From a virus, in the IMG/VR virus record IMGVR_UViG_3300009082_000030, positions 1-46,576 of that record: a DNA stretch of 46,576 nt; one strand, given 5' to 3'. Of this stretch, positions 2,161 to 46,576 are shown in pieces; the first letter of the stretch is position 1, and each line of letters starts with the position of its first letter. Both the position numbers and the translations under genes were made by a program. The notes below the pieces were generated by a model, which saw nothing but the letters and a program-made list of their open reading frames with translations, was not told the origin of the DNA and searched no databases.

Positions 2161-2164
2161 ATAA

Positions 2165-2761
2165 TTATTCCTCGAATCCGTCTAATCCACTTCCACCTTT
2201 ATCTTCTTTTGGTTTTGCTGTTGGTATTTGCGCAGATGTAACTTTTGGTGTTGTATCTTTTTCTACGGGTTGTTCAACTGTTGGTTTTGCAAAACTGTCT
2301 TGTACGTTTTTCAATTCTACACCTCTTTTTGAATATAAATTTAGTGTTTTAATTATTAAGTCTTGTGTTGCTTTTTTATATAAATCTTTATCTGCAAAGT
2401 TTTTTTCTAATTCTGTAAAGTCTTCTTCTTTATTTAATCCATAATTTATTAATGCACCTCGTGCTACAAAAGATTTAAAATATGTTCTATAGCATTTTCG
2501 TATTACTGGTTTTATATAAGTGGTTAATATTCTATATAGCATTGCTCCGGTATATTTATTAGATGCAGGAATTTTTGATAATTGAACTAAAACTCGCATT
2601 AGTTTTGCTCTATCAACAATATTTAATTGTGCTGCACCAATGTTTAATGCATGTATTTTATCTACTCCAGGTCCGCCATAAAGTATAAAAGCATATATCT
2701 TTATATTTTTTTTCCATTGAGTATAATATAAACTATAAAATGAACCTGTCTTATATAACAT
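2165..2761 (-). CDS. Hypothetical protein, probably structural
   Basis: 198 residues. I do not recognise the family. The first two thirds are mixed and basic. The last 50 residues are a low-complexity Pro/Lys/Thr/Glu tail ending GGSGLDGFEE, which looks like a disordered extension. It lies directly upstream of the large virion-type gene, with a 4-base gap. The nearest purine-rich run upstream (AAGGAAAA) sits about 15 bases from the ATG, so the start could be slightly further in. It is transcribed away from the + strand nuclease gene at 2825. A structural or assembly role is inferred only from the neighbour. Confidence 0.5.
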   Translation of the reverse strand: MLYKTGSFYSLYYTQWKKNIKIYAFILYGGPGVDKIHALNIGAAQLNIVDRAKLMRVLVQLSKIPASNKYTGAMLYRILTTYIKPVIRKCYRTYFKSFVARGALINYGLNKEEDFTELEKNFADKDLYKKATQDLIIKTLNLYSKRGVELKNVQDSFAKPTVEQPVEKDTTPKVTSAQIPTAKPKEDKGGSGLDGFEE

Positions 2762-2824
2762 ATAAAATAATATATTTTCCTTAATATATAATTAATTATA
2801 ATAAATCCTATAATATATTTAACT
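2762..2824. promoter_or_regulatory. Divergent intergenic region, probable promoters
   Basis: 63 bases of almost pure A/T between two divergently transcribed genes, so each must be served by a promoter here or nearby. Several TATAAT-like boxes occur on both strands but none stands out against the base composition. No clear Shine-Dalgarno precedes the + strand gene. Confidence 0.35.
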
Positions 2825-3355
2825 ATGAGCGATAAAAAAATATCATATAAAAAACTGAAAGTATATTCTGTAAATGTCAAAAAAAACAAAAAGCAAAGGA
2901 AAAAAAATGCTTTAAAAATGTTAGAACATTATAAGACAAATACTGGAAAACAACAAGAAAATTCTATAGAAAAAAAGGTTAGATTATATTTAGAAACAAT
3001 AGGAATATATTTTATTCCAGAATACGGAATACAACATAAATTTAAAAAAGCTAAAAAAACATATTATAAAGTTTATGATTTTTATGTTGTTGGTAATTTA
3101 AACGATTTGCCGTTTTCTTTTTTTATAGAATGCGATGGAACATATTATCATTCAGAAGATTATTATGAGGGCAAAAAAGTATATAATGAACTTACTTATG
3201 TTCAAAAGAAAAATGTAAGAAATGATAAACTGAAAAATAAAATAGCTAAAGATATTGGAATTCCTTTATTAAGATTAAAAGAAAAAGACATCAAATATAA
3301 CTTTGATGTCATTATCGAACAAATACAAAATGAAATAAAAAGACAAACATCTTAA
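2825..3355 (+). CDS. Vsr/DUF559-like PD-(D/E)XK endonuclease
   Basis: 176 residues with a Lys-rich N-terminus (about residues 1-45), then a compact nuclease core. Key elements are VYDFYVV (Asp near residue 84), FFIECDGTYYH (Glu-x-Asp-Gly and His) and the closing GIPLLRLKEKDI strand, the order seen in Vsr/DUF559-type restriction-like nucleases. Such proteins are often free-standing phage endonucleases or homing-type enzymes. It is a lone + strand gene between two minus-strand blocks and overlaps the next gene tail to tail by 4 bases, which fits an inserted moron-like gene. It has no YLE tag. The target is unknown; a DNA-repair nicking role is an alternative. Confidence 0.65.
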   Translation: MSDKKISYKKLKVYSVNVKKNKKQRKKNALKMLEHYKTNTGKQQENSIEKKVRLYLETIGIYFIPEYGIQHKFKKAKKTYYKVYDFYVVGNLNDLPFSFFIECDGTYYHSEDYYEGKKVYNELTYVQKKNVRNDKLKNKIAKDIGIPLLRLKEKDIKYNFDVIIEQIQNEIKRQTS

Positions 3356-3546
3356 TCTATATCTATATTTAACAATCTTGCATTAGAAATTTTATTTACT
3401 ATTTCATTAGCTAACTTTTTCGCTTCGGCTTTTTGATTTTTAACATTTTTAGGAACAAATATTTTAACAGCTATATTAGCCCAATAAACATTATCAGACT
3501 TTTCTTCATTTAATACTTTTATATATGTATCTATGAGTTTTTTCAT
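3352..3546 (-). CDS. Small protein with divergent YLE tag
   Basis: 64 residues starting MKKLIDTYIKVLNEE, a relaxed form of the tag in which L-N-E could be the cut site. The remainder (about 48 residues) is Lys/Asn-rich with the stretch KAEAKKLANEIVNKI, probably helical. A GAGGG Shine-Dalgarno lies 6 bases before the ATG, inside the end of the upstream gene, with which it overlaps by 4 bases. Function unknown. If the tag is real this is a small internal virion peptide. Confidence 0.5.
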   Translation of the reverse strand: MKKLIDTYIKVLNEEKSDNVYWANIAVKIFVPKNVKNQKAEAKKLANEIVNKISNARLLNIDID

Positions 3547-4946
3547 AGTTTTCCCTCTTTAAGTTTTTTTATAAAATATGCTTCATCAAATGCGCTCTCT
3601 AATTGTCCATTTGGTACATAAAATTGAGAAAGTGCATTATTACTATCATGTGAAAAAAATAAATCATTAAAATATAAAGTATCTTGATCTTCAAGCCAAT
3701 CTTCTTCACCTATAATATTATTACATAATCTATATAACATTGGCTCAATATTAATTGTATAATAGTATTTATTACCAGATTCATTTTTCCATCCATTCGC
3801 TAATAGATATTTACTAAAATAGAAATTAAAAATTTTAATTATTCCTCGATATGTGGCATCAATATATATGTCAAGTATAATATCAATAGCATCACGATGT
3901 TTTTCATAATCTTCAAAATCATTTAAATCCAGTCCATAATTATTTTTTATTATTTTTGTTATTTTATCGTTTGAACTTAAATCGTTTTTTAATATTGAAA
4001 GAATATCAATGTTTCCTATCATATCAACATAAAAATCTTCATAATCATCTGTCGCACTATATAACCAATCCATTTCATGGTTTGTATTTTTTATAAGTGC
4101 ACGATTTGATTCAAAAATATACATTTTTATATTTTTTATTGTAGCACTAATGGTGATTATTTTATCATGATATGAATATTTAAAGTTGCCAGGGCCTGAT
4201 GTGTATTGATTGTTATTCTGATAAAATATAAAATCCAATCTTGGTTCTATTATTTTTTTTATAAATACATCTTTTAATCCAGCATCGGAATCAAAAATTT
4301 TATTAAATGTTGCTTTTGATATTGGATGGTCCGACGAATCCATATAACTTGAAGATTGAATATGAAATTGATATTTTTCTTTTGTATTTTTATTTATTAG
4401 TACATATAAATTTCCAAAGTCATTATATTGGTCAAATGCATTATTTTCTGTTCTTGTTGCTGTACACCATTGAGTATCTGAGCCCCAATAACAACTTGCC
4501 TCTTTTGTTTGTGGCAATAAAAACATCCACTTATTACTTTCATAAAGTAATATTATATCATCTTTACCTTTATGTATATCTCTTCTTTTTTCTCTATCTG
4601 TTTTTATTTCAAAAAGATTATTACTGTCTAACACAGCATATACATCTTGTAATGATTTATATTTATTTATATCTCGTATTTCTAATTTATTTTTTCTTTT
4701 ATCAAATATAGTTAAATAGTCTTTGGCTTTATAAAAGTCTTCATTTTTTAATTTTTTATTTTTATAAAGATTTAGTAGCCATTTTGAATAATTGCCGACA
4801 TATTTTACAAAATTATTTTCAACTTTAGAGGTTGGGTCTAAAGAACAGATTTCTATAAATTTATCTAAAGGTATATCGTTTTTAAAAAACGGATATATAC
4901 TATCTTGATTGCCTTCGTTGATTAAATAATATAAATAGTTTTTCAT
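3543..4946 (-). CDS. Tagged W-C-T-A motif protein
   Basis: 467 residues. The N-terminus MKNYLYYLINEG is a tag variant (L-I-N-E then G). The centre has a conserved-looking block: LLPQTKEASCYWGSDTQWCT (Cys161) followed by N-x-F-x-x-Y and G-x-LYVLIN, then a K-Y-Q-F-H strand and a D-x-x-D-H-P-I loop. I have seen similar W-C-T-A/G-x-LY blocks in other large phages but cannot name a family. The C-terminal half is Asp/Asn/Tyr-rich with no recognised domain. The block loosely resembles the W-x-S-C-M blocks of the proteins at 11074-13128 and 40395-41822. Enzymatic activity centred on the Cys is possible but unproven. Confidence 0.6.
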   Translation of the reverse strand: MKNYLYYLINEGNQDSIYPFFKNDIPLDKFIEICSLDPTSKVENNFVKYVGNYSKWLLNLYKNKKLKNEDFYKAKDYLTIFDKRKNKLEIRDINKYKSLQDVYAVLDSNNLFEIKTDREKRRDIHKGKDDIILLYESNKWMFLLPQTKEASCYWGSDTQWCTATRTENNAFDQYNDFGNLYVLINKNTKEKYQFHIQSSSYMDSSDHPISKATFNKIFDSDAGLKDVFIKKIIEPRLDFIFYQNNNQYTSGPGNFKYSYHDKIITISATIKNIKMYIFESNRALIKNTNHEMDWLYSATDDYEDFYVDMIGNIDILSILKNDLSSNDKITKIIKNNYGLDLNDFEDYEKHRDAIDIILDIYIDATYRGIIKIFNFYFSKYLLANGWKNESGNKYYYTINIEPMLYRLCNNIIGEEDWLEDQDTLYFNDLFFSHDSNNALSQFYVPNGQLESAFDEAYFIKKLKEGKL

Positions 4947-8245: not shown

Positions 8246-9565
8246 TTACACTCTTGTTAATTGATATACATACGAAGGAATAACTTCTTTTACTAATCCT
8301 TTAGTTATTCTGTTTTTTATTCCTTTGCGAATATCCTCTTTATCTTTTGTAATATCAAATGCTACACCAACAGTGCCTATTATTATACCGCCAATATCAA
8401 ATAATGGAGATTTTTTAACATCAAGCCAATATTCTCCATTATCATTTGTAATAAATATTTCATAAAATCTACATGAAGTTTTTGAATCTTTTGTAATATT
8501 ATCTGTGATACCATTAATATCACCCTGAATATATTTTTGTGCTATTTTATAAATATCTGAAATTTCTTTATCATCATAACCTATAGCTTGATCTGGATCA
8601 CATCCTAATATTTTTTCACATAATAATTTACTTGCAAACATATATTTATTATTAGCATCTTTAACCCACACTAATGCTTCCATATTATCTGACATTGTTT
8701 GTAACATATTGCATCTTCTATATATTAGTTCTTCAAATCTTAATTGATCTGTAACATCTTTACCAACAGATTGAATAACAAGTGGCATGTTTTTTTCATC
8801 AAATATCATTCTATCTGTCCAACGTTGATATTTAGTTTTGTTATTAATTATTACCTTATGTGTTATTTCTCGTGATGGATTGTCTGGTGTCAATAAATTA
8901 AAATGTTCCTTAATATACTCTTGCTCTTGCTCTGGAATAAAATTAAAAAAGTTTTCGCCTATAAGATTTTCTTTTTCTTTTTCAAAAAATCTTGCATAAG
9001 CAGTATTTATAAATGTTAATGTTCCATCTGGTAATACTCTTCTTATAAATTCTGTTTGGTCTTCTACTATATTTCTATATCGTTCTTCACTTCTCTTTAA
9101 TTTTTGTTCTATAGTTTTCCATTCAGTAATATCTCTACATACTCCTATTTCATAAAGAACGTTATTGTCATTATCAATTTGACTATTAGCTCTAACATTA
9201 ACCCATTTATGTCCACGGTTTTTTACTTTTAATCTAAACTCTTTATTGCCATATTGTGTGTTGTTTTTTTCTCTTTGAACTCTAAAACTTTCAAGAACCA
9301 TTTCTCTATCTTGTTCATAAACAAACTCTATAAACATTTTACCTATTGCGTTTTCAGCATCTTCTTGAGTATAACCAAACAATTCAATATTGCCGCCGAT
9401 ATAAACAATTACACCATCTTTATCAATTTTATATACAAGATCTGGAATACTATCTACCAAAGCTTTGAACTGTTCTTCGCTTCTTTTTAATGCATCATCT
9501 TTTTCAATAAGCTCTTGAGTTAAAATTTTTAATTGTTCTAAGTTTGTTTCCATAACACTACTCAT
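8246..9565 (-). CDS. Triple-PAS sensor protein without output domain
   Basis: 439 residues. A short coiled coil (residues 1-30, ending in KRSEEQFKALVDSIPDLVYK) leads into PAS1 (about 30-150, PAC signature VCRDITEWKTIEQKL), PAS2 (about 155-275, SEERYRNIVEDQTEFIRRV to SVGKDVTDQL) and PAS3 (about 285-405, DNMEALVWVKDANNKYMFAS to VGVAFDITKDKED). The last 30 residues are basic (RKGIKNRITKGLVKEV) and match no HisKA, GGDEF, EAL, HTH or STAS-kinase signature. It is thus a free-standing sensor that must act through a partner. It overlaps the tagged small gene upstream by 8 bases and precedes the coiled-coil and STAS genes. Confidence 0.8.
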   Translation of the reverse strand: MSSVMETNLEQLKILTQELIEKDDALKRSEEQFKALVDSIPDLVYKIDKDGVIVYIGGNIELFGYTQEDAENAIGKMFIEFVYEQDREMVLESFRVQREKNNTQYGNKEFRLKVKNRGHKWVNVRANSQIDNDNNVLYEIGVCRDITEWKTIEQKLKRSEERYRNIVEDQTEFIRRVLPDGTLTFINTAYARFFEKEKENLIGENFFNFIPEQEQEYIKEHFNLLTPDNPSREITHKVIINNKTKYQRWTDRMIFDEKNMPLVIQSVGKDVTDQLRFEELIYRRCNMLQTMSDNMEALVWVKDANNKYMFASKLLCEKILGCDPDQAIGYDDKEISDIYKIAQKYIQGDINGITDNITKDSKTSCRFYEIFITNDNGEYWLDVKKSPLFDIGGIIIGTVGVAFDITKDKEDIRKGIKNRITKGLVKEVIPSYVYQLTRV

Positions 9566-10565: not shown

Positions 10566-11057
10566 ATGTTTAATTCAGGCACACTAGTTCCACGCACATT
10601 TTCAAATCGTTTTCCATCAATTTCCCCTTCTGATTTATTTAAGACTCATTCAGATCTATTCAAAGATATGGATAAAATATTTTATTTATTATTTCCAGAC
10701 TTTGTAGAGAATGAAGTTCCAGAAATATTCAAAGGGTATCCGGTTAGTAATGTTTATGTAAATACTGAAGGCGAAGTAAAAATTGAAATTGCTGTAACAG
10801 GATTTCAAAAAGAAGAAATCAATATAAACATTGAAGATAATTGCCTAATTGTTTCTGCTGAAAGAAATAATGAAGAAAATGAAGAAAAATGGCAAAATGT
10901 TTATCGCAATCTAAAAACTTCAGCTTTTGATAAACGCTATAGATTATCAAATCGTATGGACATAGAAAAAGCTAAAGTAACGATGGAAAATGGAATACTA
11001 ACAATAGTTATTCCAATTAAAGAAGGTTCTAAACCAAAAAAACTAAGTATTAAGTAA
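10566..11057 (+). CDS. Small heat-shock protein, Hsp20/alpha-crystallin family
   Basis: 163 residues. The N-terminal arm (about 1-65) is Phe/Ser/Pro-rich and contains LFKDMDKIFYLLFPDF. The alpha-crystallin domain spans about 66-160: VSNVYVNTEGEVKIEIAVTG, FQKEEININIEDNCLIVSAE, then RNLKTSAFDKRYRLS and the ENGILTIVIP strand, which carries the I-x-I/V-type motif near the C-terminus (NGxL/I-x-I). These ATP-independent holdases stop aggregation; phage copies (notably in cyanophages) are thought to help folding or assembly of virion proteins. The gene has a strong AGAGGTG site within a probable regulated leader and ends at a bidirectional terminator. It has no YLE tag. Confidence 0.9.
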   Translation: MFNSGTLVPRTFSNRFPSISPSDLFKTHSDLFKDMDKIFYLLFPDFVENEVPEIFKGYPVSNVYVNTEGEVKIEIAVTGFQKEEININIEDNCLIVSAERNNEENEEKWQNVYRNLKTSAFDKRYRLSNRMDIEKAKVTMENGILTIVIPIKEGSKPKKLSIK

Positions 11058-11061
11058 ATTA

Positions 11062-11090
11062 AAAAAGCCCGGATTATTTTCGGGCTTTTT
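11062..11090. terminator. Bidirectional rho-independent terminator
   Basis: AAAAAGCCCG (11062-11071), a 9-base loop, then CGGGCTTTTT (11081-11090). The stem is flanked by A and T runs and so works on both strands. It ends the Hsp20 gene on the + strand and overlaps the last codons and stop of the convergent minus-strand repeat protein. Confidence 0.85.
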
Positions 11091-13128
11091 CTTTAGCTAA
11101 TCGTTTTACTTTTGCTGTGGGATTATCAATATAGTCAATAGCTGATTTATTTTTTCGTACCGCTAACATTTGTATTTCTTCGGATGGGTCTGTAATATAT
11201 TTAATATGACGCCACGACCTTTTTATTAAAGCCTTATGTGACTCTGATGATACTTTCTTTATTTCTTCTGATGGGTTTTTAATAAATTGAATAGCATTAC
11301 CATTCTGTTTTACTGCTAATATTTTTATTTCTTCTGATGCATTTTGAATATGTTTAATAGCATTTCCATCTGTTTCTACTGCAAGTTTTTGTATTTTTTC
11401 GGATGGATTTTTAATATATTTAATAACAAATGGAGAATCTTTTACCGCATACCATTGCACCTTATCAGATGGATTTTTAATTAATTGAATAACAGTACCA
11501 TCTTGTGATACCGCTATTTGTTGTACTTCTTCTGATGGATTTTTAATAAATTGAATTGTATTACCACGACTTTGAACTGCCATTTGTTTTATTTTTTCTG
11601 ATGGATTTTTAATATATTTAATTAAATAAGCGCTAAAATCTATTGCCATTTCTTGTACTTCTTCTGATGGGTTATCAATAACCTCGATAACATTTGGATC
11701 ATTTTGCATTGCCAACAATTGCACTTTTTCAGATGGATTTTTAATATATGTAAGGGCATAAGCATCTTGTTCTATTGCTAATATCTGTAATTTTTCTGAT
11801 GGATTTTTAATATAACGTATTGCTTGCGGTGTTTCTTGTATTGCTTTATTTATCATACGTTGAGAAGGATTTTCAATATATTTTATTATTTCACCGTTTC
11901 TGCCAAGTGCATCTAATGTAATACTTTCTGGTGGGTCAATAAACATTTTATATAAATCAGGTATTTCATTTTCATATGCGTGCTCTATTGCATCTCGCAT
12001 AATAGATGGGGTTTGTACTTTAATATATTTAAAATTTTTCCTATCTTGTTTTATTGCTATTTTTATTATTTTATTACTTGGGTTTTTTATGTCTTTAAAA
12101 CTAATTGCTTTGTTTTTTAAAAGTGCTTCTAAATGACCATCTGATAATTTATCCAGATTTTTTTTACCATAATATTTATATGTACCCATAGTGTCATCGT
12201 AAATATCTGTTGATAAACTATATAAACCTTCTTTGGGTTTTCCTGTAACATTTTTAATTATATTCTGTACTTGTTGTTTGAATGCTTCTGGAGCTTCTTC
12301 TGGGTATGCTTTTTCTTCAACATCCCAAACCATTTCTTGTGAAAATTCAGTTTCATCTCTATCTTTATTACGACGACGAAAACCAAATTGTTTCATTGTT
12401 GTATAGGTTCTTGGCTTTATTAATACTCTTGCCTTTGGATCATTTAATTCAAATTCATCTCCGGCTTGAACTAAATATGCAATAAATACACCAGCAGATA
12501 TACCAGACCCCACCATATCTCTATACATGCCACTGTTTAAATTCATACAAGACCTCCAACCAACACTAGTTGATTGAGATGCTATTGCTCTTTGGTCCAT
12601 AGTAAATACTATTTTATATTCTTTATCTTTATTATTATTATAAATACTTAATCTTGAAATGTTTATTTTATCATTATTTATTAAGTTATTAATTTTTAAT
12701 TTATCTATTGCGTCTAATTGTTTTTTAGCACCTGGGTTTTGTTCTGCTGCTTTTTGTAATTGGTCATATGTTTTAATTTTAGAATTAAATGAACTTAAAA
12801 TGTCAATAACATTTATTTCTTTATTGTCTTTTGTAACTTTTCCAGTTAAATAACTTTCTTTAGAAACTGTATATCCTAAATCTGATAATATTGGTATTAG
12901 TTTTGTATCAAATGCATTTAGTTTAGAAATAGCTTTTGTTTGATAATCTACTATAACAGTTTCAGCAAATGTGCCACCGTTTAATTTTGTAAAAAAATTT
13001 TTAAGTTTTGGTAATACTTGTTCATATGTGTCTTTGTCAAATGTTCTATTGATTGTTGTTTTATATTTCTTTTCCCAAGATTTTTGAGATATTATTTCAT
13101 TATATATGTGATTCAAATAATCTTTCAT
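11074..13128 (-). CDS. Tagged W-R-S-C-M domain protein with 22-residue repeats
   Basis: 684 residues. The N-terminus MKDYLNHIYNEI is a tag variant. Residues about 165-300 form a domain with VGWRSCMNL (Cys194), GVFIAYLVQAGDE, ARVLIKPRTY and a W-D-V-E-x-x-x-Y segment. The same order occurs in the tagged protein at 40395-41822. From about residue 420 to the end are some twelve tandem 22-residue units of the pattern N-P-S-E-x-(I/V)-Q-x-x-A-V-x-x-x-(G)-x-x-I-x-(Y/F)-I-K, with one 29-residue unit; less regular units precede them. This resembles DUF4116-like helical repeats, a likely binding solenoid. The stop lies inside the bidirectional terminator. An injected effector with a variable recognition arm is inferred. 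Confidence 0.7.
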   Translation of the reverse strand: MKDYLNHIYNEIISQKSWEKKYKTTINRTFDKDTYEQVLPKLKNFFTKLNGGTFAETVIVDYQTKAISKLNAFDTKLIPILSDLGYTVSKESYLTGKVTKDNKEINVIDILSSFNSKIKTYDQLQKAAEQNPGAKKQLDAIDKLKINNLINNDKINISRLSIYNNNKDKEYKIVFTMDQRAIASQSTSVGWRSCMNLNSGMYRDMVGSGISAGVFIAYLVQAGDEFELNDPKARVLIKPRTYTTMKQFGFRRRNKDRDETEFSQEMVWDVEEKAYPEEAPEAFKQQVQNIIKNVTGKPKEGLYSLSTDIYDDTMGTYKYYGKKNLDKLSDGHLEALLKNKAISFKDIKNPSNKIIKIAIKQDRKNFKYIKVQTPSIMRDAIEHAYENEIPDLYKMFIDPPESITLDALGRNGEIIKYIENPSQRMINKAIQETPQAIRYIKNPSEKLQILAIEQDAYALTYIKNPSEKVQLLAMQNDPNVIEVIDNPSEEVQEMAIDFSAYLIKYIKNPSEKIKQMAVQSRGNTIQFIKNPSEEVQQIAVSQDGTVIQLIKNPSDKVQWYAVKDSPFVIKYIKNPSEKIQKLAVETDGNAIKHIQNASEEIKILAVKQNGNAIQFIKNPSEEIKKVSSESHKALIKRSWRHIKYITDPSEEIQMLAVRKNKSAIDYIDNPTAKVKRLAKEKARK
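11077..11871 (-). repeat. 66-bp coding repeats (22-residue units)
   Basis: About twelve units recur every 66 bases in frame. Most include a form of TCnGATGGATTTTTAATATA, the reverse complement of the codons for Y-I-K-N-P-S-(E/D). The copies have diverged at synonymous and variable positions, as expected of an old protein repeat under selection. Confidence 0.8.
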
Positions 13129-13983: not shown

Positions 13984-16209
13984 CTATAATGGTTTTAAAA
14001 ACTTATATAAGTTCTTATAAATATCATCTACTAATTTTTTTTGTGTATTCGTGAGCTTTCGGTCTTCTTGTATTTGTTTTAAAATAAAAACCGTTTCATT
14101 AATATATTTTTTTCTAAATTCATATGATACATGTTCTAAATCAGAAACATTATCTAATCTATCTGCTAGTTTTATAACTAATGCCCATGAGCTCATATTA
14201 GACATTTTATCTGCCAAATATCTTTTTTTACCAATCGTTTTAATTGCTTTATTATCATTAGTTAATTCTTTTACTAATGACGCAACTAATTCACCAAATG
14301 AACTTTTAATATCTTTTAATGATAGATTAGTGTCTTCAATTGTATCATGTAAATATGCTGCTGATATTAAATGCGGTAAAAATTTTGATTTTTTATTTTT
14401 GGCAATTATTTCTGCTACCTTTTTAGGGTGATTAAAGTATGGAGCATTATTAAATTTTCTTTTCTGCTCTTTGTGTTGTTCTATAGAAACTTCCTTAGCT
14501 CTATTTACCATTTTTGATAATAATGGATTTTCTAAATATACTTTTTGTAAAATATCTTGTTTAATATCGTTTGACTCGCTTATTTGTCCTTTTAATAACT
14601 TTCCCCAATCTTTATATTCGGTTTTTTTAATAGATGCAGTTTCAAACATTCCATCCATTTGTCCTTGTTTAAAACGGAAAATTATTACTATTTCTAATAC
14701 AGAAGTTTTTCCTATTGAAACAATAATTGGAAATATAACACCAGAACCGCTATTAGAAATGTCATATGATAATTTGATTTTGTTTTTCTTAATAGAATTT
14801 TTAATTGTTTTTTTAGATGGGATTACCGTATATTCATTTCCACCACCAGCAAAATACCAAAGGTCCATAGAGTCTAATGCGCTAACTTGACGAACAAATA
14901 AATCGGCTAACTTATCTTCTGTTATTTTACCGGCAAACATACTATCAATAATTTTTTTAAAATATTTGCCTCTTAATCCTTCATCTTTTTTAGAAAAATC
15001 TATATCATTTGCATCATCTTCTTCTTCTTCTAATGAAGACCATTTTTTAGTCATCTCTTGTGGTAAGCATTGATATATTTTTCTTGCTGCATATCTAAAG
15101 GATGTATATTTTTTTATTTTATCTTTTATTTGAGACCTGTCTTTTATGCCGAGTTTTATATTTGCGTCTGGAAATAATAATATTTCTTTTAATATAGTTT
15201 CAGCTTCTTTGTCGCTTATTTTATATTTTTGATAATCCGGATATGTTTTACAAGTTTGTTTTACTTTTTTTAATATTTCACGGAAAGCCGGAGCATGATA
15301 TGTAGAATTTTTACCTTTTGTCCAACTATCTAATTGTTCATACCACCCTTGTAACATATTTGTCCAATACTTTTCATGTTTTTCATATGTAAACACTGAA
15401 AATCTTTTTTCATCCATCTCTTCATCTGCTAATCCTAATGTTTTAATAATTTGTGCAGTTGAAAGATTTTTAAATTGTCCTGTTTCAAACTTTAAAGAAA
15501 TACCTTGAAATATACCATCAATAGGTATTACAATATCTGAAGCGCCAAATTTAGTACTATCATTACTCGGCCCAGTCCAATATACAACTTTAGGTGCTTT
15601 TATATTAGCAAATCTTCTAATAGATTCTGCGGTATGTAATGCATCATATGCAACATAAAAAAACTTTTTATAATTTTCTTTATCATTCTTTGGATCTATA
15701 AATGCCATTTTTCCATCTGATAATTCTATTGGTGCTAAATCTTCTGTTGCTGTTGGTTTAACTTTCGCACTTGGATATGGATAAATAAATTGTATTATAT
15801 CCGATGGCTTTGTAATAATATCTTTTGCTCTATTATGAACAACTTGTTTACTTTGCAATTGTTCATTTAAATCGTTTAATTGATTATTTAATAATTCTAA
15901 CGCCGAAGTTAACTCATCTATTTCTTTTTGTAATTGATTATTAAATGCTTTAGAAATAGTATTTTTGGGCAGTGATTGTTCTTTGCTTAATTTTTGTTGC
16001 TTACTATTTAAACTTTTTTCTGCTTTAGTTATTTTATTATTTACTACATTTATATTTTTATTTATATATGATATAGACTTATCTTCTTCTTCTTTTATTT
16101 TTAATTCTGGATAGGCTAAAAAAACGGCAACAAGAATTTCATGATAAAATGTTGTTGCATTTGCATCACCAGATAATGTCGCTTCTAAATAATAATTTAA
16201 GTCAGCCAT
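13984..16209 (-). CDS. Tagged multidomain protein with C-terminal SpoT/MESH1-type HD hydrolase domain
   Basis: 741 residues. Tag MADLNYYLEATL. Residues about 45-120 form a coiled coil. A central region of about 420 residues has no family I recognise but includes WTGPSNDSTKFGASDIVIPI and RFRFK-type strands. The C-terminal domain (about 560-735) shows YFNHPKKVAEII (zinc-binding His), AAYLHDTIEDT (His621-Asp622), FGELVASLVKELT and VIKLADRLDNVSDLE, the order of RelA/SpoT-type and MESH1-type hydrolases, which cleave the 3'-pyrophosphate of (p)ppGpp. There is no synthetase domain. If injected, it could damp a stringent response or remove alarmone signals at once. Another pyrophosphorylated substrate is possible. 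The ATG overlaps the stop of the preceding gene. Confidence 0.7.
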   Translation of the reverse strand: MADLNYYLEATLSGDANATTFYHEILVAVFLAYPELKIKEEEDKSISYINKNINVVNNKITKAEKSLNSKQQKLSKEQSLPKNTISKAFNNQLQKEIDELTSALELLNNQLNDLNEQLQSKQVVHNRAKDIITKPSDIIQFIYPYPSAKVKPTATEDLAPIELSDGKMAFIDPKNDKENYKKFFYVAYDALHTAESIRRFANIKAPKVVYWTGPSNDSTKFGASDIVIPIDGIFQGISLKFETGQFKNLSTAQIIKTLGLADEEMDEKRFSVFTYEKHEKYWTNMLQGWYEQLDSWTKGKNSTYHAPAFREILKKVKQTCKTYPDYQKYKISDKEAETILKEILLFPDANIKLGIKDRSQIKDKIKKYTSFRYAARKIYQCLPQEMTKKWSSLEEEEDDANDIDFSKKDEGLRGKYFKKIIDSMFAGKITEDKLADLFVRQVSALDSMDLWYFAGGGNEYTVIPSKKTIKNSIKKNKIKLSYDISNSGSGVIFPIIVSIGKTSVLEIVIIFRFKQGQMDGMFETASIKKTEYKDWGKLLKGQISESNDIKQDILQKVYLENPLLSKMVNRAKEVSIEQHKEQKRKFNNAPYFNHPKKVAEIIAKNKKSKFLPHLISAAYLHDTIEDTNLSLKDIKSSFGELVASLVKELTNDNKAIKTIGKKRYLADKMSNMSSWALVIKLADRLDNVSDLEHVSYEFRKKYINETVFILKQIQEDRKLTNTQKKLVDDIYKNLYKFLKPL

Positions 16210-24024: not shown

Positions 24025-25431
24025 TTATACCTTTTTAATATAATCATTAATTTTATTTATATCATTAATATCTATATTATTATTTAATATCCAATCAATA
24101 GTTTTATTAATGGTTTTTCCAACTTCTGGCCCAGGTTTTAAATTCTTTAATTTCATTACCAATTCTCCATTTACAATCTTTTTAAGGTTGTTTGAAAAAT
24201 CGGTATTAGCATATTTTAATGTTACTTCTTCGATTTTTTTAGTTATTTTATCCCATTCTTGTTTTGAAAATAAATCGCCTCGGGCTTTTTGGTCAGCCAA
24301 TGCAACATTATATAATACATTCCAATGTTTATTTTTAATTAAACTAAATATTTTAGCATTACTCATATTCAAAAAATCATGAAGCTTCATATGGTTTTCA
24401 CAAGCAAAAATTAAAGCATCTTTTGTTTCGTTATCCATTTTTAATCTTGAAGCGATTTCTTCAATTAAAGATATACCGGCTTGAGCATGACCAAGATATT
24501 TAGCTCTTCCATCAACATAAGTTTTAGTTGTTAACTTACCAATATCATGTAATAATATTGCCAAATTAACAATTGGGGTAGCTATATCATTTGCTCGTAT
24601 TGCTGAGATAACATGGTCATATACATTAGGACCTTCAGGATGAACGTCTAAAGAATGTTCCATATCTTTAAGATTTACAATTTCAGGTAATATATATTTT
24701 AATAAATTAGCTTCATAGAGTATTTCAATATATTGCGCGAACTTATCTCCAGATTGTTCTGCTGCTTTTAATATTTCTTGTAAAATTCTTTCTGAAGATA
24801 CATTAGTAATATTGTTTGCTAATTTTTTTACGGCTTCTATTGAGTCTTTATCTATGGTATAATTTAATCTTGATGCAAAACGTGCCATTCTCATCATACG
24901 TAAATAATCTTCTTTGAATCTTTGTTCTGGGTCACCTACTGTTTTTAATACTTTATTTTGAATTGCATTCATACCATCAAAATAATCTATAACATTACCA
25001 TTACTATCTATAGCCATAGCATTAATTGTAAAATCACGACGAGCAGCATCATCTTCAAATGACATAACAATTTCTACACTTTCTGGATGTCTACCATCGG
25101 AATATGTTCCATCTCGTCTAAAATTGGCAATTTCATAAGTAAACCCTTTATAAGTTATTACAACTATACCAAAATCTTTATTTTTGCCAATGTCATGACT
25201 TTCAAATAATTCTTCTATTTTTTTGATAGGAACATTAGTTGCTATATCAATGTCATCTGGTTCTTTATTACCAATAACTATATCCCTAACAGCACCACCG
25301 ACAATATAAGCGTCTCCATATTTTTCTAATTTTTTTAGTATTTCAACGCCTATTTTTAGCATAGGAATACGATTAACATATGTATTCCATTCTGCAAATG
25401 AAGTTATATCTTCTAGATAATTTTTGAACAT
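24025..25431 (-). CDS. cca: Tagged CCA-adding enzyme / poly(A) polymerase family nucleotidyltransferase with HD domain
   Basis: 468 residues. Tag MFKNYLEDITS. The nucleotidyltransferase core follows: YIVGGAVRDIVIG, PDDIDIAT (the catalytic D-x-D), then FEDDAARRDFTINAMAID, DYFDGMNAI and DYLRMMRMARFASRL, the class II tRNA nucleotidyltransferase order. A C-terminal HD domain has ILLHDIGKL and ENHMKLHD, as in bacterial CCA enzymes with 2',3'-phosphatase/phosphodiesterase activity. It adds or repairs the 3' CCA of tRNA. A tag on such an enzyme is unexpected. Injected, it could restore host tRNAs damaged by defence nucleases (inference). It overlaps the SpeD-like gene upstream by one base. Confidence 0.85.
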   Translation of the reverse strand: MFKNYLEDITSFAEWNTYVNRIPMLKIGVEILKKLEKYGDAYIVGGAVRDIVIGNKEPDDIDIATNVPIKKIEELFESHDIGKNKDFGIVVITYKGFTYEIANFRRDGTYSDGRHPESVEIVMSFEDDAARRDFTINAMAIDSNGNVIDYFDGMNAIQNKVLKTVGDPEQRFKEDYLRMMRMARFASRLNYTIDKDSIEAVKKLANNITNVSSERILQEILKAAEQSGDKFAQYIEILYEANLLKYILPEIVNLKDMEHSLDVHPEGPNVYDHVISAIRANDIATPIVNLAILLHDIGKLTTKTYVDGRAKYLGHAQAGISLIEEIASRLKMDNETKDALIFACENHMKLHDFLNMSNAKIFSLIKNKHWNVLYNVALADQKARGDLFSKQEWDKITKKIEEVTLKYANTDFSNNLKKIVNGELVMKLKNLKPGPEVGKTINKTIDWILNNNIDINDINKINDYIKKV

Positions 25432-25796: not shown

Positions 25797-26207
25797 TTAT
25801 TTATCCTCCAATTCATCATATTCATCATAGTATCGATTTATTTCGTTTGTATTTATTTTTTTAGCATTAAATATTTTTTTTAATTCTTCAACTATATAAT
25901 ATACTTTATTTCTATTATCTGTCAAATAGTTACATACATATATATCAGTATTAACTATTTTTTCTTCCGGCCAGGTATGAATTGTTACATGGCTTTCTTG
26001 TAATATTATTGCGCCGCTATAACCACATTGATTTTCTTTATCTATATTAAATGAATAAAAGGTATCTGCAACCGGTGTTAATGATGATGCTTTAATAATA
26101 GAAAATAATTTTTCTTTTATTAAATTATAATCTTTTAATAAAGATATATCACATTCACAATCATATAAATCTAACGTAATTTGAAATCCGGCTCCAAAAT
26201 TATTCAT
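25797..26207 (-). CDS. speD: S-adenosylmethionine decarboxylase proenzyme
   Basis: 136 residues. The family signature is complete: GYSGAIILQESHVTIHTWPE (self-cleavage before Ser72, which becomes the pyruvoyl cofactor) and DIYVCNYL. The enzyme makes decarboxylated SAM, the aminopropyl donor for spermidine. I see no spermidine synthase (SpeE) in the window. Phage polyamines neutralise packaged DNA, so this may serve condensation or host supply. The acidic end (YYDEYDELEDK) is an unusual extension. Not tagged. Paired with a divergent paralogue downstream. Confidence 0.9.
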   Translation of the reverse strand: MNNFGAGFQITLDLYDCECDISLLKDYNLIKEKLFSIIKASSLTPVADTFYSFNIDKENQCGYSGAIILQESHVTIHTWPEEKIVNTDIYVCNYLTDNRNKVYYIVEELKKIFNAKKINTNEINRYYDEYDELEDK

Positions 26208-30717: not shown

Positions 30718-31065
30718 CTATAAAACGAAATCATCCTTGAGCTGTTTCTTAAAAAACGAAAATAACTTTTTATTTTTTTTAACTTGATTCCGATACTCAT
30801 ATAATTCTTTTCTTTGTATAATATCATTTGCAAAATCTGCATCTAAATTATTATAATACTTTTCAAAACACTTACTGCTTGCTAAAAAAATCTTAGGTGC
30901 AACATATAAATATTTATAAGTTTCACTTGCAAATGCATTTTTATTATAATTCAAAAATGTTATAAACTTATAATTTATATCTTTTTCTTTACAAAACTTT
31001 TTTACCATTTTATCAAACTTATTATATTGTTTCATATAATAATTATTTAATATCATCTCTTCCAT
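30718..31065 (-). CDS. Hypothetical basic protein
   Basis: 115 residues, rich in Lys, Tyr and Phe (KKNKKLFSFFKKQLKDDFVL at the end). It starts MEEMILNNYYMKQYNKF; the internal Met at residue 11 is a possible alternative start. No domain seen. It is last in the direction of the two-component genes, separated from them by a 53-base gap containing two TATAAATA boxes. Confidence 0.45.
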   Translation of the reverse strand: MEEMILNNYYMKQYNKFDKMVKKFCKEKDINYKFITFLNYNKNAFASETYKYLYVAPKIFLASSKCFEKYYNNLDADFANDIIQRKELYEYRNQVKKNKKLFSFFKKQLKDDFVL

Positions 31066-31118: not shown

Positions 31119-32111
31119 CTATGAAAAATTAAAATTATTATCAATTTTATTAATTATTGGTATTGCAAATTTTACAGCTTCTTCGTTATATAATATGTTT
31201 TTATTACTATCAAGTTCCATTATTACTTCTTCTTTAAGACCTCTTTCTTTATATGGACGTGGCATAAACATTGCTTCGGCAACATCGGCTACAGCAATTA
31301 TTTGTGCTTCTAATAAAATTTCATTACCCTTTAATCCATATGGATAACCACTACCATTTAATCTTTCATGATGTTGTAATACAATATCTGCTATCGGCCA
31401 TGGAAATTTAATATTTTTCAAAATTTCATAACCATTTACTACATGTGAATTTAATATTTCTCTTTCAGCTTTAGATAGTTTTTTTGTAGTTGTTAAAAAT
31501 TCTCCAGGTATTGATATTTTTCCTATATCATGAACATAACCAGCATAATAAATACTTCGACATTGTTCTTTTGGTAAATGCATAAGTTCTGCAATTCTTG
31601 TTGCTAATCTGCTTACATGTTTTTGATGGCCAGCAGTATATGGATCTCTTTGTTCTGTAATATTAGCAATGGCAATAACTATATCATTAAACAAACTATT
31701 TTGATCTTCTATTATTTTTCTCATTTTAGCACTTTCTTGATATTTTTGTAGGGCCAATTGTATTGTTAATATAAAAGTGTTATGATCTAATGGTTTTGTT
31801 AAATATCCATATGGATTTGTTTTAATAATTTTATCTAATGTTGCAACATTTGAATATGCCGTCATAAATACAATTGGTATATCTTTATGTTTTGTAATTT
31901 CATATGCGGCATCAATTCCAGATACATTATCTATCAATCTTATATCCATTAATATTAAATCAATATCATTTGATAATGCACATTGTATAGCATCTTGTCC
32001 TGTGTTACATGGACCTATTATTTTATAATTTAATTTATTTAATATATTTCTTATTTCTAGTTGTGTTACTGCTTCATCTTCAACTAATAATATTTTTATT
32101 TCTTTATTCAT
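31119..32111 (-). CDS. Response regulator with HD-GYP domain (probable c-di-GMP phosphodiesterase)
   Basis: 330 residues. A receiver domain (1-125) has the acid pair E11/D12, phosphoacceptor Asp56 in LILMDIRL, and GYLTKPLD (Lys). A short coiled linker leads to an HD-GYP domain (about 145-310): RDPYTAGHQKHVSRLATRIA, YVHDIGKISIPGE, HVVNGYEIL and HHERLNGSGYP, the diagnostic motif with N in place of the usual D. HD-GYP proteins hydrolyse c-di-GMP, controlling motility and biofilm. It overlaps the histidine kinase gene by 8 bases, so the two are a cognate pair. Untagged. Confidence 0.85.
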   Translation of the reverse strand: MNKEIKILLVEDEAVTQLEIRNILNKLNYKIIGPCNTGQDAIQCALSNDIDLILMDIRLIDNVSGIDAAYEITKHKDIPIVFMTAYSNVATLDKIIKTNPYGYLTKPLDHNTFILTIQLALQKYQESAKMRKIIEDQNSLFNDIVIAIANITEQRDPYTAGHQKHVSRLATRIAELMHLPKEQCRSIYYAGYVHDIGKISIPGEFLTTTKKLSKAEREILNSHVVNGYEILKNIKFPWPIADIVLQHHERLNGSGYPYGLKGNEILLEAQIIAVADVAEAMFMPRPYKERGLKEEVIMELDSNKNILYNEEAVKFAIPIINKIDNNFNFS

Positions 32112-33324
32112 AGTTATTTTGCCATATAGGAAATGTTATTTTAATTTTCGTACCTTTATCTATTTTTATTTCAATATCATCTTGTAATTGTTGGGCTAAA
32201 CTGGTAATTAATTTAAACCCTAAAGTTTTAATATTATTTATGTCCTTAATATCTATTGACTTAGGTAAACCAATACCATCATCTTTTACAGTTAAAACAT
32301 AATTACCATTATTACGATAAAAATCAATAACAATAACTCCCTTTTTCTTATTTATAAAAGCATGTTCAATTGAATTTGAAATAAGTTCATTTAATATTAA
32401 TGTAATTGGTACTGCTTGGTTTATATTTAATATTACATTTTTTTCTATATTCAATATAAAATCTATATTTAATTTTGGAGTTTTTAATGTTTCATATATT
32501 ACATTTATTAAACTTTTTAAGTGGTCTTCGACATTTATAGAATCTAATTTTTCTGATTTATATATTTTTTCATGTATAAGACTCATAGACTTAATTCTAT
32601 TTTGTGTGTCTTTTAATATTGTTTTTACTCTTTTATTTTTTGTGTTATCTAGTTGTAATGAAAATAAGCCAGATATAACAGATAAATTATTTTTAACTCT
32701 ATGATGCACCTCTTTTAATAATAATTCTTTTTCTTTATTTGATTGTTCCAATATATCTTTAATTTTTTTCCTTTTGGTTATATCTGCATAAACTATAATT
32801 ATTTCATTTGTTAATAATTTAGATATATAAATCTCTACCCATTTATTATATTGATTATCTATATAATTAAAATTTAATATAGAGTTAGGTGTATTACAAC
32901 AATAAGTGTTATTTATAGCTAAAGATATTTCTTTTTTAAACCCTGGAAAAACATCTTCAAATTCTTTATTTAATATTTCATTTTCTTTTATCTTCCATAA
33001 TGTCTCAGACATGTTATTAAATCCTACAATAATATTCTTATTGTCTTTTTTTTGTAAAACCATTATAGCAACATTTACATCCTTAAATAAATTATAATAT
33101 ACTTTTTTACTTGTTTTAACATATTGTATTAATAAATAAAAAATATAACTAAAAATAGCTATAAATAAAATACTAATTATTCTTTCTATATTTTCATGTA
33201 ATTCAATATTATTAACAAAAAAATGTTTATCAAAATAAATATCTAAAAAATAAAATACTATAGAAAAAAAAGATACATATAAAGAAAATATGTATTTATA
33301 AAATCTTTGATAAAATGATGACAT
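32104..33324 (-). CDS. Membrane histidine kinase (HisKA_2 type) with PAS domain
   Basis: 406 residues. Two membrane segments (about 11-30 and 47-66) flank a short extracytoplasmic loop. A PAS domain (about 82-185) is next, then LLLKEVHHRVKNNLSVISGL with the phosphorylated His near 207, and an HATPase_c domain: LILNELISNSIEHAF (N box), VKDDGIGLP (G1) and LGFKLITSLAQQ (G2). HisKA_2 kinases are typical of bacterial signal transduction. AGGTGG sits 9 bases before the ATG. Overlaps the HD-GYP regulator, its likely partner. A complete two-component system in a phage is very unusual. Confidence 0.85.
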   Translation of the reverse strand: MSSFYQRFYKYIFSLYVSFFSIVFYFLDIYFDKHFFVNNIELHENIERIISILFIAIFSYIFYLLIQYVKTSKKVYYNLFKDVNVAIMVLQKKDNKNIIVGFNNMSETLWKIKENEILNKEFEDVFPGFKKEISLAINNTYCCNTPNSILNFNYIDNQYNKWVEIYISKLLTNEIIIVYADITKRKKIKDILEQSNKEKELLLKEVHHRVKNNLSVISGLFSLQLDNTKNKRVKTILKDTQNRIKSMSLIHEKIYKSEKLDSINVEDHLKSLINVIYETLKTPKLNIDFILNIEKNVILNINQAVPITLILNELISNSIEHAFINKKKGVIVIDFYRNNGNYVLTVKDDGIGLPKSIDIKDINNIKTLGFKLITSLAQQLQDDIEIKIDKGTKIKITFPIWQNNYE

Positions 33325-42616: not shown

Positions 42617-44956
42617 TTATCCTATGCTTGTCGTAATTACTCGTCTATCTTTGATAGTCGAAATAATCTTAATTTTTTCAATACTTCCAACAGCTTCCCA
42701 TTCTATAGAAGCAACCATACCTCTTGCGGCTTCAACAGCAATAGGATTATTAGAATCATTACATGTTACTATAAATCCAGCCTTAACAGCTTTTCTATCA
42801 ACTAATTCATTCATCATAGTTGTTAAAACAGCTTGCATTTCTTCTCTAGTAGCTTTTGTTAATGGTTGCCAGAAAAAGTCAGGCGCTATAGAATATACTT
42901 TCTTCTTAATATATAATGCTGTTCTTAATACATTAAGTCTACTTAATGCATCAAAACTTCTTCTTGTATTTTTTTGACCATCAACAAAGAATCCACGTGT
43001 GGTTGTATATACAACAGGGTTTATAGAATTTCCAAGTTCATCAGCATATAATCTTGCCTTATCATCTTCTCTTAAATATAATGCTAAAGCTTCTATTGAT
43101 TGCATCTCAGATCTTGGTCCTGCCGGCGCTGCAAACTTATGACCACTTAATTTATCATTATTTGAAATCATACCAACTACTCTTGTTGTCGGTGCATGCC
43201 ATTGATTTGGCGTAGTTGTGTTATATGGAACATTTAATAATAACCATGGAAAATAAGTGGTTACATACATGCTATCAAGTTTTTTGGTTCTAAGACTTGG
43301 CATTAAACCATTATGCCAATTTATCATTGAGTATATATTTCCATCTATACCAGCAACATCTTCTGGTGGATCTATTATTCCAAAACAGTCCATTCTTTGT
43401 TCACATACTTCTTGAATTTTATCATGTACAGCTTCAGAAACATTACCTGATACAGCTAAAACATCTATATTATATAGGTCAACATTTTTATATTCTTCAA
43501 GAGCTTGAATATATTTTGCATCCGCTATACCAACTGTACCTTCATGTGTTCCAGATGTTCCACCAGATAATTCTGTAACACCATATGGAAATTCATAAAT
43601 ATATGTCGATCCAGGAATTACATCTGCTGAAAATTCTAATACTTTATTTACATTTACATCATTTGCTAATAATGTTCCAATATAAGCTGGAGATTCAGTA
43701 TCATAACTATAATTAAAATAGTTTGCAACTATTTGGTTACCAAAGTATATTGTTAAGGAATATCCGTCTTGTGTCGCTATCTTTTCAAAATAGATATTGT
43801 TTCCTTGTGTTCCAGTATATTTTGCTATAAATGAACCAGCATTATTTATAGAATCTTTTCCATAGTTAGCCGTAGCCATTGTAGCTAAACCTAATAAACT
43901 ATAAGTTGATGCTGTTGCTGGTGTAGTATTTGCAATCAATATTGATTTAGTACTACCACTTTCATTTGTTATTACTTCAAAATATCCAGTTACACCAGAA
44001 ATATATGCCGTTGCAACAGTTCCTAGGTTTGTATTTATTGCACTTAAGATTGTTGATATTGGTGTATTAGCACCAGAAACAATAACAGGAACTGCCGGCG
44101 TTGCATTAAACAGTCTTGGAAGTGAAAATATCTTAATACTTGAATCAACACCTATTTCTATAGATGTTAATTTTATTGTGCTGTTTGTAAAACTTATAAT
44201 TGACGCTTGTATTGTTGTTGCTAATCCAGCCGGAGTAAAAATAAATTCTTTACATGCATCTATCCATCTTTCTTCATATAATCTGTCATCTTGTGTACTT
44301 AATGTTCCAACAGCTTTATCTGCGATGTTTGTAAAATAATCTGTTGTACCAGTTACACCAGATGCTATAACATGTGTAAAATGATTTCCATCTATTTCAA
44401 AATCAAGTATTTCTCCAATCGAATAATTCCAAGATGATGTTGTACCATATACTACACTTGCTAATGAAAGGCTAGTTTGAGTTGGTACTGATGGTGTTTG
44501 TGATAATGTTACAGGAATTACTGTTCCATTAATGTTTAATGCCAATAGATTGTTTTGTAGATTTTCTCCTCTATCGGTTGCATTAATCATGAAGTTGCTA
44601 TTGGATATTATTAAATTACCAGTTACTTTTGCAGCTTCAGCTTGTTTAGTAATTACTTTCATTGCTTTTGTATCATGACCATTAGTTACGCGTATAAACC
44701 AAGCTACTGGTGAATAATTTAAATGGTATTCACAAGATAGTCCTGAAGAGTCGCTATAGTCATAATAATCTATTGGAGTTCCAAATAAATTTGAAAAACT
44801 TTTTTCTATTAAAGTTGGTTCGCTAACAGGTCCCCAGTTTGCTCCACCAACAAAAGCGGCAATTGTTCCAGTAAGTTTTTCGATTATATTTTCAACTTCT
44901 ATTCTTTGTTCGTATTTAAAGCCTTTACCTAATATATCATTTACAGTTTCTGACAT
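42617..44956 (-). CDS. 18: Contractile tail sheath protein (T4 gp18-like)
   Basis: 779 residues. N-terminal GTIAAFVGGANWGPVSEPTL and central variable domains (beta, Gly/Ser/Thr-rich, with repeated TGYFEVITNESG-type stretches), then the conserved C-terminal domain: DKLSGHKFAAPAGPR, LADELGNSINPV-like, VDGQKNTRRSFDALSRLNVL and EWEAVGSIEKIKIIST. Contraction drives genome ejection. Slightly longer than T4 gp18, with the extra length in the central domain. AAGGAG lies 10 bases before the ATG. Confidence 0.9.
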   Translation of the reverse strand: MSETVNDILGKGFKYEQRIEVENIIEKLTGTIAAFVGGANWGPVSEPTLIEKSFSNLFGTPIDYYDYSDSSGLSCEYHLNYSPVAWFIRVTNGHDTKAMKVITKQAEAAKVTGNLIISNSNFMINATDRGENLQNNLLALNINGTVIPVTLSQTPSVPTQTSLSLASVVYGTTSSWNYSIGEILDFEIDGNHFTHVIASGVTGTTDYFTNIADKAVGTLSTQDDRLYEERWIDACKEFIFTPAGLATTIQASIISFTNSTIKLTSIEIGVDSSIKIFSLPRLFNATPAVPVIVSGANTPISTILSAINTNLGTVATAYISGVTGYFEVITNESGSTKSILIANTTPATASTYSLLGLATMATANYGKDSINNAGSFIAKYTGTQGNNIYFEKIATQDGYSLTIYFGNQIVANYFNYSYDTESPAYIGTLLANDVNVNKVLEFSADVIPGSTYIYEFPYGVTELSGGTSGTHEGTVGIADAKYIQALEEYKNVDLYNIDVLAVSGNVSEAVHDKIQEVCEQRMDCFGIIDPPEDVAGIDGNIYSMINWHNGLMPSLRTKKLDSMYVTTYFPWLLLNVPYNTTTPNQWHAPTTRVVGMISNNDKLSGHKFAAPAGPRSEMQSIEALALYLREDDKARLYADELGNSINPVVYTTTRGFFVDGQKNTRRSFDALSRLNVLRTALYIKKKVYSIAPDFFWQPLTKATREEMQAVLTTMMNELVDRKAVKAGFIVTCNDSNNPIAVEAARGMVASIEWEAVGSIEKIKIISTIKDRRVITTSIG

Positions 44957-46379: not shown

Positions 46380-46576
46380 CTATTTATCTGGATTAATTTC
46401 AATCCCTTGTTTTTTATCTGTACCACTTATAATTATATCTGCTGGTGGGAATTTGTTACCTAATAATTTATCAAATCCACCCTTAGCTTCAATACTTTTC
46501 CAAACTTCAGGATGATTTTTTTGTAACCATGATATAAACATAGCTTTTATATTTTGGCCATTCTTTTTATCTGCAG
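46380..46576 (-). CDS. Hypothetical protein, 5' end outside window
   Basis: A reverse frame open to the right edge, of which 64 residues are visible, with the end ADIIISGTDKKQGIEINPDK. KKNGQNIKAMFISWLQKNHP and VWKSIEAKGGFDKLLGNKFP precede it. No family recognised. Its stop is 10 bases before the tagged gene. Confidence 0.5.
   Translation of the reverse strand, partial: ADKKNGQNIKAMFISWLQKNHPEVWKSIEAKGGFDKLLGNKFPPADIIISGTDKKQGIEINPDK

Follow-up and report, generated by a model that had tools for sequence, protein, structure and literature searches.

Does a phage encode a complete sensor-to-output two-component system that acts on a host second messenger and, if so, are its parts intact and what would they do during infection? 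The question is raised by two overlapping genes, designated HK and RR, that encode a membrane histidine kinase and a receiver-HD-GYP response regulator in the 46,576-nucleotide viral record IMGVR_UViG_3300009082_000030, the whole of which was analysed and is referred to below as the window.

Residence of the gene pair in a T4-like phage

The window (46.6 kb) encodes a tail sheath protein, an SbcCD-like nuclease, a ribonucleotide reductase and other phage-type genes, and the carrier of the pair is a low-GC T4-like phage. Both ORFs are located as originally predicted (Table 1) and the overlap between them is exactly the 8 bases ATGAATAA, at 32104-32111. A second assembly, the sister contig IMGVR_UViG_3300027792_000044, corresponds to window positions 26304-46576 with 99.916% identity over 20,273 b, and extends 14 kb beyond the window through genes for a head-tail adaptor, a major head protein, a prohead protease and a portal. 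The two assemblies differ by one synonymous change in HK and by none in RR, and neither gene is interrupted by stops or frameshifts. When 46 genes were ranked by how typical their codon usage is for this phage, HK and RR ranked 42 and 45, among the most typical, and with such synonymous codons the pair seems to have been adapting to this genome for a long time. The pair therefore resides stably in a T4-like phage. Contamination by host DNA, named in the original prediction as a finding that would overturn it, was considered and rejected, as the same junctions are present in a second assembly that ties the pair to virion genes and the codon usage is phage-typical.

The window ends in a tandem array of ~120-129 b units (46457-46576; positions 154-539 of L194), present in ~3 copies in the sister contig, and this array is probably why the assembly stopped there. 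Several other genes in the window are of host-metabolism type (Table 1). The gene at 13984-16209 (minus strand) encodes a 741 aa protein with a long N-terminal part and a C-terminal HD_4 domain resembling those of RelA, SpoT and MESH1 (YLHDTIEDT, KLADRLDNV), and so is a candidate for a second nucleotide-signal (alarmone) hydrolase of this phage. A 439 aa protein encoded at 8246-9565 (minus strand) is composed of approximately three PAS domains, lacks an output domain such as a kinase, and could be a free-standing sensor.

The T4 late-promoter-like sequence TATAAATA is enriched in the window, with 48 copies observed versus 28.7 expected and none of 100 shuffles containing as many. Few copies are, however, positioned just upstream of genes. 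There is one within 130 nt upstream and on the sense strand for 10 of 76 genes, compared with 4 in the reverse orientation, and one copy is 97 nt ahead of HK. A further copy is 18 nt ahead of the gene at 30718-31065. Sites resembling sigma-70 promoters are no more frequent than expected by chance, and a search for a terminator found none.

Table 1. Positions of the gene pair, its domains and other genes in the window
Feature	Position	Strand	Description or evidence
HK	32104-33324	minus	406 aa, membrane histidine kinase, HisKA_2 + HATPase_c
HK, two predicted TM helices, ~residues 9-31 and 44-71	33112-33300	minus	hydropathy; model helices 2-34 and 40-80 (low-confidence part)
HK, putative PAS-like sensor region, ~residues 83-181	32782-33078	minus	AlphaFold alpha/beta layout, pLDDT ~62-85
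HK, HisKA_2 phosphoacceptor domain, residues 205-278	32491-32712	minus	PF07568; aligned with EL346 (4r39)
HK, HATPase_c, residues 305-400	32125-32412	minus	N box NELISNSIEHAF; G boxes DDGIGLP, LGFKLI
RR	31119-32111	minus	330 aa, receiver-HD-GYP response regulator
RR, receiver, residues 7-116	31764-32093	minus	PF00072, 2.5e-19
RR, HD-GYP domain, residues 149-297	31221-31667	minus	HD_5 match; seven dimetal ligands; Y158 in the place of E185
HSP20 chaperone	10566-11057		host-metabolism type
DUF4116 protein	11074-13128		host-metabolism type
CCA-adding/poly(A) polymerase-like enzyme	24025-25431		host-metabolism type
S-adenosylmethionine decarboxylase	25797-26207		host-metabolism type
Tail sheath protein	42617-44956	minus	phrog_23, 1.5e-35; also on the sister contig bearing the pair

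Residues retained in HK and RR

Pfam matches, two TM segments and residue alignments together confirm that a membrane HisKA_2 kinase and a receiver-HD-GYP regulator are both present. In addition to the Response_reg match (Table 1), RR matches HD_5 (5.5e-34) and HD (2.9e-19), and HK matches HisKA_2 (6.6e-25) and HATPase_c (PF02518; 3.4e-9). These scores are so far over the curated cut-offs that chance is not an issue.

Based on hydropathy, the two membrane helices of HK are joined by a short loop and a sizeable extracellular sensor domain is absent, so the signal is probably membrane-borne or cytoplasmic. The AlphaFold model of HK (74.1) is weaker than that of RR (mean pLDDT 94.4). In it, the membrane helices are followed by a region that may have a PAS-like fold, given the modest quality of the model, and then by the kinase core. 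As Pfam returned no PAS match in HK, we infer this region from the model layout only. The predicted phosphoacceptor is H208, within the sequence EVHHRVKNN, and H208, R209, K211 and N212 are invariant in the alignment of HK relatives, as are N317, D348, G350, G352 and G369 in the HATPase_c domain. With a HisKA_2 domain followed by N and G boxes, HK is classified as a HisKA_2 histidine kinase and is predicted to autophosphorylate. Neither the receiver nor the HPt domain of an RpfC-type hybrid kinase was detected in HK by Pfam.

The receiver of RR has the acidic pair E11/D12, the phosphoacceptor D56, T84 and K106, with D56 and K106 invariant in the alignment of relatives, where the number of each is smaller by one. 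Among the best solved sequence relatives of this receiver are EutV (6wsh) and the antiterminator 1s8n. The kinases that serve them, EutW and PdtaS, are of the HisKA_2 type.

Residues of the HD-GYP domain were mapped on an alignment with PmGH (PDB 4mcw, in which the chain numbering is that of the paper +6), using the catalytic residues listed by Bellini et al. (PMC4159591). All seven dimetal ligands are kept in RR (H162, H194, D195, H223, H247, H248 and D276). The PmGH catalytic pair D183/K225 is present as D156/K198, the guanine contacts R314/K317 as R285/K288 and I294 as I265, and G255-Y256-P257 is conserved. The HHExxDGxGYPxxxxxxxI motif reads HHERLNGSGYPYGLKGNEI in RR, with Asn instead of Asp ahead of the first Gly, a replacement also present in L004. 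The arginine and aspartate that are paired near the metal centre of PmGH, R192 and D308, are H165 and E279 in RR, and a Glu at the latter position is nearly invariant among relatives.

The eighth, trinuclear, ligand of PmGH, E185, is Y158 in RR, which thus lacks the E/D-T-G signature of trinuclear enzymes. This position is the character that divides the HD-GYP family into subfamilies (PMC4159591) and, with a tyrosine instead of the carboxylate, the RR domain belongs to the Y/F subfamily as defined there and is probably a dinuclear enzyme. HD-GYPs of the dinuclear kind are held to halt after one hydrolysis step (PMC8177086). The initial assertion that all catalytic motifs are intact is consequently correct for a dinuclear Y/F enzyme but not for a trinuclear one. 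Within that limit, alignments to solved structures and motif inspection indicate that HK and RR keep every residue for ATP binding, His/Asp phosphorylation and dimetal phosphodiester hydrolysis.

When the RR model was compared with the PDB by Foldseek, the HD-GYP structures 9rbz and 4mcw (PmGH) ranked top, with DvhD the best structural match; the HD-GYP structure of PA4781 and receivers were also matched. By sequence, the second-best PDB match of RR is V-cGAP3 (5z7c), a cGAMP phosphodiesterase that shares the segment YTAGH.

Related genes in viral and bacterial sequences

Pattern-based scans of viral contigs identified at least 74 HD-GYP relatives and at least 16 HisKA_2 relatives, both lower bounds, and all seven ligands are kept in 67 of the 78 HD-GYP domains surveyed. 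Within these lower-bound counts, a kinase gene adjacent to a receiver-HD-GYP gene was found only in the window phage and at L170, a locus in IMGVR_UViG_3300029286_003693 (82.7 kb, 54% GC; terminase, P22-like portal, integrase). Three large contigs, G003 (109 kb; terminase, sheath), G004 (61 kb) and G009 (234 kb; terminase), have receiver-HD-GYP genes that form a separate clade in the tree. A single hybrid kinase, unlinked to these genes, is also encoded in each of the three; it contains PAS and/or GAF domains, and its N-terminus resembles solute-binding or ABC-substrate-binding proteins. The view that phages rarely carry both components is thus supported in part. Very large hybrid kinases of 1207-1692 aa, with PAS/GAF, HATPase and receiver domains and an N-terminus of the kind just described, are encoded in large viral contigs at L195 6141-11216, L196 1956-6281 and L197 4687-8307, with receiver-HD-GYP genes elsewhere in the same genomes. 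Of the 22 records searched, including G000 and G001, 21 had no GGDEF (diguanylate cyclase) gene, the exception being G035, and this favours breakdown without synthesis. The repeated occurrence of receiver-HD-GYP genes together with kinases in several large viral contigs, unaccompanied by a cyclase gene, suggests a common theme and not a chance event.

At L170, a multi-PAS kinase gene precedes the receiver-HD-GYP gene (2375-3376) in the same order as in the window, and homology between the two contigs is confined to these two genes. The L170 pair is at the very end of its contig, so a host flank is possible there. Its receiver is intact and its HD-GYP active site is destroyed, with Y, L, Y, R and H at the positions of H194, K198, H223, H248 and D276, and so the output of such a pair may be non-enzymatic in phages. 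When 60 receiver-HD-GYP proteins were placed in a tree, RR grouped (support 99/96) with the L170 protein and with L089, a protein from a deltaproteobacterial MAG that retains every dimetal ligand as well as the D/K pair. The HK tree lacked resolution and so lends no support to co-inheritance of the two genes.

Bacterial plasmids and genomes contain hundreds of matches to parts of the pair. In the Aminicenantes MAG L108, a HisKA_2 kinase gene (1191-3329) is directly upstream of a receiver-HD-GYP gene (3376-4746), and two Campylobacterota plasmids (L011, L012) have adjacent, slightly overlapping HisKA_2 and receiver genes, the latter with another C-terminal part. The 8-base overlap, the EutV/1s8n-like receiver and the gene order shared with L170 and L108 argue for HK and RR being a cognate pair. 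No nucleotide relatives of the window were found in phage records, and scans of viral contigs with single proteins returned nothing beyond the same phage. Matches by tblastn in phage records were left out, as most are to faecal contigs labelled 'Bacteriophage sp.', which carry no annotation and may be of bacterial origin.

Possible role and relation to known systems

We consider it fairly probable that HK and RR are an acquired, phage-borne two-component module of bacterial type that controls the degradation of a cyclic dinucleotide of the host, with c-di-GMP as the probable substrate. HK would sit in the host membrane during infection, where its membrane helices and the putative PAS-like region would do the sensing. 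Phosphate would then pass from H208 of HK to D56 of the RR receiver, and phosphorylation of D56 would switch the HD-GYP domain on or off; in the receiver-EAL pair ArrS/ArrR of Aeromonas, phosphorylation inhibits the enzyme (PMC11841396). The HD-GYP domain would linearise the host cyclic dinucleotide, most likely converting c-di-GMP to pGpG, and the outcome would be a signal-gated fall in the level of the host messenger during infection. No substrate is commoner among HD-GYP enzymes than c-di-GMP (PMC8177086), and RR keeps both guanine contacts, which is why we favour it. As V-cGAP3 is a close match, cGAMP is also a possible substrate, and the determinants of cGAMP specificity vary among known HD-GYP enzymes (PMC8177086).

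The match to V-cGAP3 also bears on a role in counter-defence, in which the HD-GYP domain would destroy 3'3'-cGAMP (CBASS) or another cyclic oligonucleotide, with the kinase and receiver timing or gating its activity. Such a role has been predicted for jumbo-phage HD-GYP proteins (Iyer et al. 2021, PMC7824862), and the HD domain protein encoded at 13984-16209 would be a second hydrolase of nucleotide-signal type in this phage. The YTAGH segment is, however, common to relatives of RR, R285 and K288 are retained, and the PADLOC library gave only weak matches, to Cas3-type HD and receiver models. Receiver gating and a membrane sensor would also make more sense for signalling of an environmental or physiological state than for evading immunity at all times, and we regard counter-defence as unlikely.

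It is less likely still that the HD-GYP domain is primarily a binding or regulatory module, namely a c-di-GMP receptor or a GGDEF-binding partner, rather than an enzyme. The HD-GYP domain is degenerate in L170, the one further adjacent pair identified, and DvhD, the top structural match, is described as a c-di-GMP receptor (PMC13090378), but DvhD lacks the HD pair in our alignment whereas RR, like its bacterial sister L089, keeps all the dimetal ligands and the D/K pair. In favour of host DNA having been misassembled or binned into the viral contig, or of the genes being a decaying passenger, is that kinase-regulator pairs of this type are ordinary in bacteria. Given the junctions shared by two assemblies and extending to head genes, the uninterrupted frames with a lone synonymous change in HK, and the phage-typical codon usage, such an origin is very improbable, barring an artefact common to both assemblies.

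A signal-gated module for cyclic dinucleotide breakdown, our preferred reading, could rewire the signalling of an infected bacterium. With an intact sensor-to-output pair that would be directed at a global second messenger, whether phages sense conditions with bacterial hardware becomes directly testable, and biofilm formation, motility and cyclic-nucleotide immunity are what they might reset in this way. More tentatively, some large phages may possess a sensory circuit of their own, with a membrane kinase that controls when a cyclic dinucleotide of the host, either c-di-GMP or an immune messenger of the cGAMP type, is destroyed. The virus could then adjust the lifestyle of its host, or the host's immunity, to a condition that it senses, and the window would be the compact, intact example.

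Two-component parts have been annotated before in a myovirus, Alteromonas phage V22, as a histidine kinase/response regulator (CheY-like) AMG, in which an HD-GYP output is not annotated (PMC7289586). HD-GYP proteins of jumbo phages were described by Iyer et al. 2021 and read as counter-nucleotide enzymes, and they share with RR a phage origin and host cyclic nucleotides as the proposed target; a receiver-HD-GYP protein joined to its kinase is not described in the accessible portions of that paper (PMC7824862). A search of the open-access literature found no phage operon of a kinase with a receiver-HD-GYP regulator, although absence there is not proof. In BFVD, the matches were viral receivers, none of them in a full receiver-HD-GYP protein.

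The bacterial regulators RpfG of Xanthomonas, TM0186 and PA4781 have the same receiver-HD-GYP fusion and the same two-component input to cyclic-dinucleotide breakdown, but are not phage-encoded. Y158 places RR in the Y/F dinuclear subfamily, unlike PmGH and TM0186 with their E/D ligand (PMC4159591), and the partner of RR is a simple HisKA_2 kinase rather than a hybrid such as RpfC. In kinase family and receiver, the pair resembles EutW-EutV, PdtaS-PdtaR and the pairs on plasmids L011 and L012, the last two also in having adjacent, slightly overlapping genes, but in all of these the output is an ANTAR or other C-terminal domain instead of HD-GYP. The parts are thus ordinary bacterial ones and HD-GYP proteins were already known from jumbo phages; what is new is the pairing of the two, apparently intact, in a phage.
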